From the NCBI GenBank assembly GCA_018267215.1, contig JAFDYX010000029.1, positions 173,873 to 237,872 on the forward strand: DNA of 64,000 nucleotides, read 5' to 3'. A program made the translations under genes and the position numbers. This document shows, in pieces, positions 62,022-64,000 of the stretch. Under the pieces are notes generated by a model, which did no database searches, had not been told where the DNA came from, and saw only the letters and a program-made list of their open reading frames with translations. The DNA comes from Bacteroidota bacterium. Its GTDB lineage: Bacteria; Bacteroidota; Bacteroidia; Cytophagales; Cyclobacteriaceae. The stretch's first letter is position 1. The number at the start of each line of letters is the position of its first letter.

Positions 62022-62366
62022 TTAACTGGCGCAAGCGTCAAGCTTGTGCCAGTTGAGCTTATTGATGAAGCCATTTTCATAATGAACCAAATCCGTTTTA
62101 AGGCTTCCGATAAAACCGTGAATGGCAACATCGCTATACACAGGCAGCCGATATCCGTAGGTAGTTTGCATATATTTTAAGAGGACGGGCTTATCAAAAG
62201 CTATAGCAGAGAATAAATCAATATCTATGCTCATTCGGTGCCCGATCTGAAGTGAAAGTGCAGTGCCACCCACTAAAATAAATGAAGATAACTTTTTATC
62301 GAGCATCAGTTTTTGTAAAACATCCAATGTATTCTTTGAAACTGTGTCGGTATGCAGTTTGCTCAT
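62022..62366 (-). pseudogene. AbiEii-type nucleotidyltransferase, C-terminally truncated by a REP element
   Basis: 114 aa remain. The N-terminal nucleotidyltransferase signature is present: FILVGGTALSLQIGHR followed by SIDIDLFS, containing the GG...D-x-D-type catalytic motif. Full-length relatives are about twice as long. The frame leaves the family pattern near FINKL, and the final ten codons and stop (NWHKLDACAS) are read from the REP palindrome at 62024-62054. Enzymatic function is doubtful. Its start overlaps the stop of the upstream partner by 4 bp (ATGA), as in an operon. Confidence 0.8.
62024..62054. repeat. REP-like palindrome 1 (at end of the AbiEii fragment)
   Basis: 31-nt palindrome with arms AACTGGC/GCCAGTT and inner CAAGC/GCTTG. 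It is the same element as those around the RAYT gene 1.2 kb downstream. Confidence 0.85.
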
Positions 62367-62701
62367 ATCCTTATTTTTTGGTTACTGTTTTTGAGCAGCG
62401 AAGGGGAGAGCATTAAATTTTTGTACGCCTTCATGTCATTATATGGAATAGAAAAGATATTGCTGATAAACTCTATTTCCCGTTGCGACAGCGAAGGGAT
62501 TTCTTTGATTTGCGACACAACTTTATCAATGCCATAGAGATTGAGCATGGCGTAAAAATCTTCACTGGCACCACGCTCAATTACGCGCTGCACAACTAAA
62601 GCAGTCTGTGCTGTAAAATCAAAACGCGACTGGTCATACTCCCAAAAAAGAGCGGGATTAAACTGAGCTTCCGAATGAAGTTTGTAGTTGTCGAAAAACA
62701 T
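62363..62701 (-). CDS. Small protein paired with AbiEii-type gene (DUF6922-like, tentative)
   Basis: 112 aa from the ATG at 62701; an upstream in-frame start at 62755 adds an unlikely 18 residues. It is helical: WEYDQSRFDFTAQTALVVQR, RVIERGASEDFYAML, and IEFISNIFSIPYNDMKAY. It resembles the short proteins that commonly precede AbiEii-type nucleotidyltransferase genes in Bacteroidota, possibly their antitoxin side; the family name is recalled, not checked. The 4-bp overlap with the truncated toxin-like gene supports pairing. Confidence 0.65.
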   Translation of the reverse strand: MFFDNYKLHSEAQFNPALFWEYDQSRFDFTAQTALVVQRVIERGASEDFYAMLNLYGIDKVVSQIKEIPSLSQREIEFISNIFSIPYNDMKAYKNLMLSPSLLKNSNQKIRI

Positions 62702-62808
62702 AACTAAGCGAAATGAAACTACTTCAAAGTAACAAACTTTGTTACTAACTCCCAATTTTCTCGTAAAGCCATCGTTGGCTATATTTTCCGATCAGATGTA
62801 AGCGTCCT

Positions 62809-62984
62809 ATTCAGGCGCTAGCGTCACGCTTGCGCCAGTTGAGGGCAAGAAGTCTGCCGCAAGAACAAGTTGGTTATTTTTCGACTATAAGTAGGAAATA
62901 CAAATTTGCTGATAATGACAGGTTATGTTTTGCCCTTTGTCCAATCATTCTTACTTGGCACAAGCGTGACGCTTGCACTAGTTG
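62809..62984. mobile_element. REP-bounded mini-cassette 1 (internally deleted RAYT derivative)
   Basis: Two REP-like palindromes in opposite orientation (62809-62840 and 62952-62984) flank ~110 bp. Inside, 62887-62922 matches the first 12 codons of the RAYT gene (ATA instead of ATG). The following tail TGTTTTGCCCTTTGTCC is shared with mini-cassette 2 but not with the RAYT gene. Confidence 0.7.
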
Positions 62985-63025
62985 CCTTGTGCCACAAGGG
63001 CATTACAAATGCCTTTTTATTTGTC

Positions 63026-63056
63026 GTTCGACATACGCTGCGCTAACATGTCGAAC
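63026..63056. repeat. 9-bp inverted repeat GTTCGACAT/ATGTCGAAC
   Basis: Perfect arms 63026-63034 and 63048-63056 with a 13-nt GC-rich loop, lying between the two mini-cassettes and followed by AGCAAAATTTTTTTG, so a terminator-like role is possible. Not REP-related. Confidence 0.55.
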
Positions 63057-63081
63057 AGCAAAATTTTTTTGTTAAGTCCGC

Positions 63082-63245
63082 AATCAGGCGCAAGCGTCAC
63101 GCTTGTGCCGCAAGAACAAGTCGGTTAATTTTTTCAACCATGAGCAGGAAGTACAAATTTGCTGATAATGACAGGTCATGTTTTGTGCTTTGTCCTTTAT
63201 CCAATCAGGTATCAACTGGCACAAGCGTGACGCTTGCGCCAGTTG
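63082..63245. mobile_element. REP-bounded mini-cassette 2 (internally deleted RAYT derivative)
   Basis: Opposed REPs at 63083-63110 and 63214-63244 flank a segment whose 63140-63175 equals the first 12 codons of the RAYT gene, ATG included. It then continues with CATGTTTTGTGCTTTGTCCTTTATCCAATC. A 41-codon frame (63140-63265) runs through it. CTTTATCCAATC recurs at 63981-63992 beyond the RAYT gene, suggesting an internal deletion of a longer element. Confidence 0.7.
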
Positions 63246-63271
63246 CCTTGTGCCGCAAGAGTTAAAGTTCT

Positions 63272-63297
63272 CATTCAGATGTCCCGCTTGTGCCGAA
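63272..63297. repeat. Partial REP-like element upstream of RAYT
   Basis: Half-palindrome with CCGCTTGTGCCG, 26 nt before the RAYT start, in the position of the left REP of the cassettes. Confidence 0.55.
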
Positions 63298-63322
63298 GCA
63301 ACAAGAAGGTTAACTTTCCATC

Positions 63323-63871
63323 ATGAGCAGGAAGTACAAATTTGCTGATAATGACAGATTATACTTTATCAGTTTTGCTGTGGTTTACTGGATTGATTTG
63401 TTTGTCAGGAGAGAATACAAGGACATTGTATTGGAGAGTTGGCGGTACTGCCAACGGGAAAAAGAGTTGGATATCTATGCGTGGTGCATTATGCCCAGCC
63501 ATGTTCACATGATCATCGGAAGTAAAGGCAGGCCGTTGGATAAAATTGTTGGAGAGATGAAAAGCTATACATCGCGTATGCTCAGGAAAGCCATAGCAGA
63601 ACACGCAGGAGAAAGCAGAAGGGAATGGATGGTCTGGCTGATGGAAAAGGCCGGGATGGGCAATAGCAATAATAACGAATGGCAATTATGGCAGCAGCAT
63701 AACAAACCGATAGAATTGCTGAATGAGGAAATGTTTTATCAGAAGATGGAGTATATCCATAGGAATCCGGTAGAAGCAGGTTTTGTGGAGAACGAGGAAG
63801 ACTATCTACACAGTAGTGCAAGAGATTTTTTTGATAAGAAGGGTTTGGTCGAGTTATCGTATGTTGTGTAG
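63323..63871 (+). CDS. REP-associated tyrosine transposase (RAYT, IS200-like Y1)
   Basis: 182 aa. The single-strand-DNA HUH nuclease motif is MPSHVHMIIG, with the HVH metal-binding pair. The candidate nucleophilic Tyr is in EMKSYTSRML, about 45 residues later. The C-terminal YIHRNPVEAGFV is the RAYT signature. RAYTs bind and cut REP hairpins and are thought to spread them. Two further partial copies of its 5' end lie upstream and several REP-like palindromes on both sides. Confidence 0.9.
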   Translation: MSRKYKFADNDRLYFISFAVVYWIDLFVRREYKDIVLESWRYCQREKELDIYAWCIMPSHVHMIIGSKGRPLDKIVGEMKSYTSRMLRKAIAEHAGESRREWMVWLMEKAGMGNSNNNEWQLWQQHNKPIELLNEEMFYQKMEYIHRNPVEAGFVENEEDYLHSSARDFFDKKGLVELSYVV

Positions 63872-63876
63872 AGAAA

Positions 63877-63940
63877 GGCACAAGTGGGATGCTTGAGCCA
63901 GCCAGAGTAGGGAAGGCACAAGCGGGATGCTTACGCCAGG
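63877..63940. repeat. REP-like elements downstream of RAYT (two copies)
   Basis: Two imperfect palindromes, 63877-63901 and 63915-63939, of the form GGCACAAG-n-GGATGCTT-n-GCCAG. The core reads GTGGGATGC/GCGGGATGC rather than GCGTGACGC as in the left copies. A third, shorter GGATGCTTGCGCAAG stretch follows at 63944-63958. The window ends 42 bp later. Confidence 0.75.
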
Positions 63941-64000
63941 CAAGGATGCTTGCGCAAGTGAAGGCCAGTAGAGGTTTTATACTTTATCCAATCTGGGGCA

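Follow-up and report, generated by a model that had tools for sequence, protein, structure and literature searches.

Internally deleted, REP-bounded RAYT forms in Bacteroidota, some of them scattered, look like steps from a transposon toward small mobile repeats

The relations among RAYT genes, REPs and REPINs are outlined in the portions available to us of PMC2817692, PMC3116915, PMC8049555 and PMC3733652, where the spacers of known REPINs appear as short and highly diverse (PMC8049555). Palindrome-bounded, non-autonomous elements called PATEs have been described from Haloquadratum and, according to the accessible part of PMC3119063, some of them arose by core deletion of an IS605-type transposon and sometimes carry remnants of the transposase coding sequence. 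In TIRtrons and TIRYT, as presented in the accessible part of PMC3733652, long inverted repeats enclose a tyrosine transposase gene, and their ends also occur as dispersed copies. The part of PMC6006769 available to us places subclass 2.6 of TnpAREP mostly in Bacteroidetes, with WQ and YIHxNP motifs and with atypical flanking structures, copies of which lie elsewhere in the genome; deleted copies with gene pieces are not mentioned in that description. No description of RAYT codons inside REP pairs was found in the accessible portions of these six papers (PMC3116915, PMC3733652, PMC6006769, PMC2817692, PMC8049555 and PMC3119063).

We analysed a window of 64,000 nucleotides from a Bacteroidota draft genome (35 contigs, 3.38 Mb, 96.5% complete). 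An earlier note on this DNA had placed two REP-bounded units, with their REPs opposed, upstream of an intact RAYT gene, and this arrangement was confirmed: the first unit (M1) spans positions 62814-62979 and the second (M2) 63087-63240. Details of the features are presented in Table 1.

Table 1. Features of the M1, M2 and RAYT region (window positions)
Feature	Positions	Strand	Evidence
M1 left REP	62814..62836	+	hairpin -10.1 kcal/mol, z -3.6; REP pattern match
M1 leader and RAYT codons 1-14, start codon ATA at 62887	62855..62926	+	81% to RAYT start region, E 3e-14
M1 tail ..CCCTTTGTCCAATC..	62929..62955	+	repeat family D6
M1 right REP	62957..62979	-	repeat analysis and REP pattern match
Outer half-palindrome after M1 right REP, common to both units, CCTTGTGCCACAAGGG	62980..63000	.	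family D4, 93% over 43 nt including REP
Dispersed 38-bp palindromic repeat, unrelated, between M1 and M2	63024..63061	+	21 matches in own genome, <=3 mismatches
M2 left REP	63087..63109	+	perfect 10-bp stem, -9.9 kcal/mol, z -3.9
3' half of M2 left REP, leader, first 12 RAYT codons with ATG intact at 63140	63096..63174	+	86% to RAYT start region, E 2e-21
M2 tail TTTGTCCTTTATCCAATCAGG	63189..63209	+	repeat family D6
M2 right REP, pairs 23/23 with left REP	63218..63240	-	inverted repeat I2
Outer half-palindrome after M2 right REP, common to both units, CCTTGTGCCGCAAGAG	63241..63261	.	family D4
Left REP of the RAYT itself (CCC variant), missing its left arm	63281..63294	+	unfolded, -0.2 kcal/mol
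Intact RAYT gene, 182 aa	63323..63871	+	NF047646 REP_Tyr_transpos E 1.5e-28; Y1_Tnp E 1.4e-9
Degenerate right REP of RAYT, CCC/GGG variant	63877..63899	-	family D3
Second degenerate right REP of RAYT	63915..63937	-	D3, I5; REP pattern match
Half REP	63944..63958	-	family D5
Tail of third right end (M3), then perfect REP(-) on contig C4	63976..63996	+	D6; 100-bp contig overlap

The gene downstream of the units scores 99.5 bits against the RAYT family model NF047646 (cut-off 80) and contains a Y1 HUH domain (Y1_Tnp 38.6, cut-off 23). Its likely home is subclass 2.6 as far as the accessible part of PMC6006769 defines it, the protein reading SHVH and YIHRNP where the subclass table gives NH[LIV]H and YIH[QN]NP. 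A search of solved structures gave zero matches at E <= 0.001. RAYT relatives at 42%, 30% and 29% identity, together with fragments, are present in the same genome, a second close copy is absent, and relatives at E <= 0.001 occur in 53 of the 62 congeneric genomes searched (its own included). A remnant of another RAYT, with several stop codons, lies at C2:107164-107368 of the same genome.

The earlier note had given both units about 165-175 bp; measured from REP to REP, M1 has 166 bp and M2 154 bp. The RAYT leader that it reported is present in both as CCGCAAGAACAAG, although the gene itself reads CCGAAGCAACAAG; the first 12 codons, said to be in each unit, follow an ATG in M2 but an ATA in M1. 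Matches of M2 and M1 to the RAYT start region are far beyond chance and show homology of the units to the start of a RAYT. As for the tail, which was held to be foreign to the gene, its CTTTRTCCAATC part is indeed unaligned, but its first part aligns with codons 12-15/16. Both tails include CAATC. The REP arms of M2 are 100% complementary over 23 nt and the whole unit is predicted to fold as a single long hairpin (z -6.2), the predicted fold of M1 being weaker (z -2.8). To the right of the right REP both units read AGTTGCCTTGTGCC(A/G)CAAG(G/A)G, and similarity between them stops beyond the REP-bounded unit and this right extension of about 21 nt. The outer stretch was first taken as a mark of tandem duplication and later as a possible compound right end, comparable to that in Terrimonas (see below).

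Other repeats and gene remnants surround the units. The 38-bp palindromic repeat between M1 and M2 is probably a separate REP-like family, and it also adjoins RAYTs on contigs C30 and C27. A further dispersed repeat around CCCCTCTCC..GGAGAGGGG adjoins lone REPs at three loci (L044, L045 and L046). To the left of M1 lies a truncated AbiEii-type ORF (62022-62755, minus strand), whose Pfam AbiEii match covers profile positions 2-49 of 238 and whose final codons are supplied by a REP copy at 62028-62050; its neighbour has a DUF6922 match.

Both flanks of the RAYT gene carry degenerate REPs, the left one being broken. Reappearance of the M2 tail after the gene, as had been noticed earlier, was borne out at 63976-63996 and extends past the window, whose final base is the end of contig C21. 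Read in reverse complement, the final 100 bases are identical to the end of contig C4; past the overlap C4 continues with CAAGCGTGACGCTTGCGCC and completes a perfect right REP(-) of the units' type. Such contig overlaps point to a branching of the assembly, so that a join of C21 and C4 is likely rather than certain. Assembly breaks at RAYT/REP sites are seen here (C21/C4, overlap 100 bp) and at C17/C27 (overlap 125 bp). Since its REP is of the GTCACGC type (on the other strand) found in M1 and M2, and the REPs adjoining the gene are of the CCC variant, this right end, M3, may be read as a third right end of the units' type. The first bases of its tail resemble RAYT codons 13-16. The alternative, that the tail is the native 3' flank of the gene, was considered and left unproven: a check of 3' flanks, suggested with the earlier note, did locate the tail and then, beyond the window end, a REP(-), but TCCAATC lies within 200 nt past the stop codon in 1 of the 94 RAYT loci checked.

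Comparison with the gene suggests a parent other than the gene itself. Between M2 and the gene, 9 of 32 leader sites differ (plus two gaps) and none of the 35 sites in codons 1-12; counted by hand as 9 of 33, the leader differs from the codons in this respect with p 0.0008. M1 differs from the gene at 10/32 leader and 3/35 codon sites, and from M2 at 3/32 and 3/35. As regards selection on the start codons, the three M1 differences in codons 1-12 are, by eye, all at third positions, a pattern in keeping with descent from a sibling gene that formerly functioned. Because its REPs and leader differ from those of the units, the present RAYT is probably a sibling of their parent and not the parent.

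In our view M1 and M2 are, fairly probably, the non-autonomous products of internal deletion in a Bacteroidota-type RAYT transposon. The parent would have been a RAYT flanked by inverted REPs, sibling to the present RAYT element, which lost its coding middle and left behind the left REP, the leader, the first 12-15 codons or so, a short tail and the right REP. RAYT proteins are thought to bind the single-strand hairpins of REPs. The REP pair of a unit, forming such hairpins as putative binding sites, would make it a potential substrate in trans, and copying by a RAYT, or rearrangement at the palindromes, could have produced the two units, and the piece of a third, that lie next to the gene. 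We infer that M1 and M2 may have moved by this route with a RAYT acting in trans; the kept codons would be passengers and not a needed signal. The internal deletion proposed in the earlier note gains support from Terrimonas, the genome G014 and other loci where the middle is lacking (see below); the adjoining RAYT is probably not its source. Weighing against this reading are the absence of M1 and M2 copies beyond the locus (see below), the rarity of the tail in RAYT 3' flanks, which leaves a RAYT 3' origin of the right junction doubtful, partial copies elsewhere that are one-ended, and the sequence that both units have in common on their right, which is compatible with local duplication.

Partial copies also accompany other RAYTs of the phylum. 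From named genomes we took the best 80 loci of at least 470 stretches encoding a RAYT relative and looked in the fetched flanks (up to 10 kb) for partial copies of 20-299 coding nt, with up to five random mechanical ORFs per locus (251 in total) as control. Such copies lie near 13 of these best 80 RAYTs as against 14 of the 251 control ORFs (p 0.004), one of the 14 being a second RAYT. A previous survey, whose 95 loci included some records twice, gave the same kinds of copies, together with second RAYT genes, full or nearly so, at L099, L157 and L169. In all 13 loci the first-listed fragment lies no more than 30 nt from a gene end; multiplied together, the chances under uniform placement give 3e-12 (one fragment per locus, RAYT fragments alone). 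The start is kept in six loci (L130, L157, L185, L194 from nt 11, L201 and L204) and the 3' end in eight (L127, L128 to 20 nt before the end, L149, L155, L156, L157, L183 and L186), both being kept in one. L156 has a further, interior piece (codons 139-153) with the 3' piece directly after it, and five codons, below the 20-nt limit, are kept in L165 and L197. The common factor is a REP-bounded end and not the start codon, with the kept part varying by lineage, which fits loss of a transposon core and derivatives that a RAYT may copy in trans.

Some of these loci contain more than truncated ends. Two-ended units were recognised by eye at L128, L149, L156, L197 and L201, the other named loci being one-ended or of unclear structure; in Terrimonas, G014 and some other loci the units combine sequence from the two sides of a RAYT and lack its middle. 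At L157, L165, L185 and L204 the start-bearing piece goes straight into the next left REP, making these truncated left ends and not two-ended units, and at L130 the sequence read contains no right REP after it. The copies at L127 and L186 resemble a 3' end repeated locally. Within G063, the genome that contains L157, the start-bearing piece has no copies except RAYT gene starts, and leader pieces lacking the start are repeated on another contig.

Local decay with tandem duplication, in which the left end of a RAYT was duplicated in place by slippage or recombination at palindromes and then truncated with no movement, is the first rival to be weighed. The genome of the window itself speaks for it. 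In a DNA search the start region occurs at three places in the draft (M1, M2 and the RAYT gene), all at this locus, so the genome-wide check for dispersed copies that the earlier note had suggested gave none: copies of M1 or M2 beyond the locus are absent from the 3.38-Mb draft and from the 61 other congeneric genomes, where the sole match is the start of the RAYT gene of one genome (G002). Single REPs of the units' type, allowing one mismatch, lie at five other places in the genome. All 22 listed partial coding copies of the 13 surveyed loci are likewise oriented as their gene and within 10 kb of it; the left ends at L157, L165, L185 and L204 are arranged head to tail, followed by a complete left end or the next REP; and the 21-nt stretch recurs to the right of both units. 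However, similarity between M1 and M2 is gone outside the REP-bounded unit and its extension, and shared orientation is expected under tandem copying and also under single-strand insertion favouring one replication strand. The reading, which overlaps with the copying step proposed above, is rather unlikely in our estimation.

Dispersed copies in Terrimonas sp. NS-102 also count against a purely local origin. The unit there consists of REP(+), about 40 nt, RAYT codons about 163-177 and REP(-), and its four copies (99-100% identity) are spread over three contigs, with 3.3 kb between two of the copies; another feature is that one copy is without its final 12 bases and lies 33 bases from a contig end. 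Similarity between pairs of copies ends 59-74 bases to the left of the query unit and, on the right, between 12 bases short of the unit end and 34 bases past it. Farther out the flanks are unrelated except for scattered repeats, mostly copies of ends; at the two C30 loci these include a stretch of 130 nt matching at 97%, about 800-1000 bases from the unit. The left end of the unit recurs at the RAYT lying 4.5 kb off (98% over 91 nt). Mobilisation of core-deleted units in Terrimonas is supported on sequence grounds, because four near-identical copies have unrelated immediate flanks. Mobility of deleted forms, raised in the earlier note, is to this extent upheld, but for Terrimonas and not for M1 and M2.

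Two further genomes extend the range of forms. G014 contains four units of 151-170 bp in which the RAYT leader is joined to the last codons and a right REP; they are 90-100% identical to one of them and all lie within 4 kb. In that genome, an extra unit with codons 1-36 is all that matches the window protein at E <= 0.001. By eye, the CTTGAG of codons 35-36 recurs at the 3' end, which fits a core loss that sometimes happens at short matches. RAYT-derived units of G014 stand at L207 and L208-L210, the genome having no full RAYT match at E <= 0.001, and isolated right ends are present at 3.59, 3.62 and 4.06 Mb, the last RAYT codons being kept in some of them. On the complete chromosome of Chryseobacterium sp. 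ZHDP1, no more than 17 kb separates three start-bearing units (the query, 98% and 89%) from a RAYT whose own start is broken. Two share a right flank and the third has different flanks; likeness to the RAYT 3' side is small beyond the REP itself, which is weak evidence for the right junction. The ZHDP1 units (L246) lie between ORFs, some paralogous, and adjoin a 1390-aa ORF; of these ORFs, the two tried have no Pfam match. Two of the units share a flank with a neighbouring duplicated gene.

The right junction bears on a second rival, in which an old RAYT took up a REP or REPIN after about codon 15 and afterwards lost its remaining part; CAATC(A/T)GG, the tail, would then be the foot or target of the incoming REP. 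AATC(A/T)GG does stand to the left of other REPs in the genome (M2 left, C17, C23 and C21:136981), TCCAATC was found in 1 of 94 RAYT 3' flanks, and for subclass 2.4 the accessible part of PMC6006769 reports REPs inserted into RAYT genes. We nevertheless regard this origin as unlikely, as the same type of junction in M1, M2 and M3 would require a single truncation and then duplication of the complete two-ended unit, which would again be the copied entity.

That the kept start is functional, as a leader/start decoy or regulatory RNA titrating RAYT or controlling its translation, is very improbable: start-bearing copies do recur (6 of 13 named loci), and M2 keeps an ATG and codons 1-12 identical to the gene although its leader differs, but 3' ends are kept as often (8 of 13), the length kept ranges from zero to dozens of codons, start codons are missing from the main forms in G014 and Terrimonas and M1 has lost its ATG, which goes against the recognition or translation signal suggested earlier.

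Returning to internal deletion as the preferred origin, it is tempting to speculate further, at somewhat less than even confidence, that RAYTs of Bacteroidota are still mobile and repeatedly shed REP-bounded, core-deleted copies with either gene end, as living intermediates between a RAYT transposon and REPINs, the shared orientation then reflecting strand-biased single-strand insertion. Units with RAYT codons between REPs link RAYT and REPs by descent, and they are natural substrates of graded length for testing the end requirements of a RAYT of this subclass.

Compared with the described systems, M1, M2 and their kin are best regarded as probable MITE-like RAYT derivatives, akin to REPINs and to the PATEs of haloarchaea. 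Like REPINs and BIMEs, M2 has two inverted REPs that form one long hairpin, a short spacer and a position near a RAYT. In contrast to these, the spacer of M1 and M2 is RAYT leader and coding sequence, and the copy number is low: two complete units and the right end of a third, at one locus, and not many dispersed copies. Copies at unrelated sites, as in MITEs, are found in Terrimonas and not in the genome of the window; both ends with the coding middle lost are found in Terrimonas and G014, whereas M1 and M2 keep the left RAYT end and have on the right a REP and a tail with no match to the RAYT 3' end. TIRtrons and TIRYT resemble the RAYT locus in their tyrosine transposase gene, inverted repeats and end copies, but their repeat sequences differ from the REPs of the window, and the accessible part of PMC3733652 does not mention coding passengers. 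The PATEs, being likewise non-autonomous and palindrome-bounded and in part core-deleted, are the nearest precedent in the literature as accessible to us; they belong to haloarchaea and an IS605-type transposon, whereas the setting of M1 and M2 is a RAYT with REP ends in Bacteroidota.
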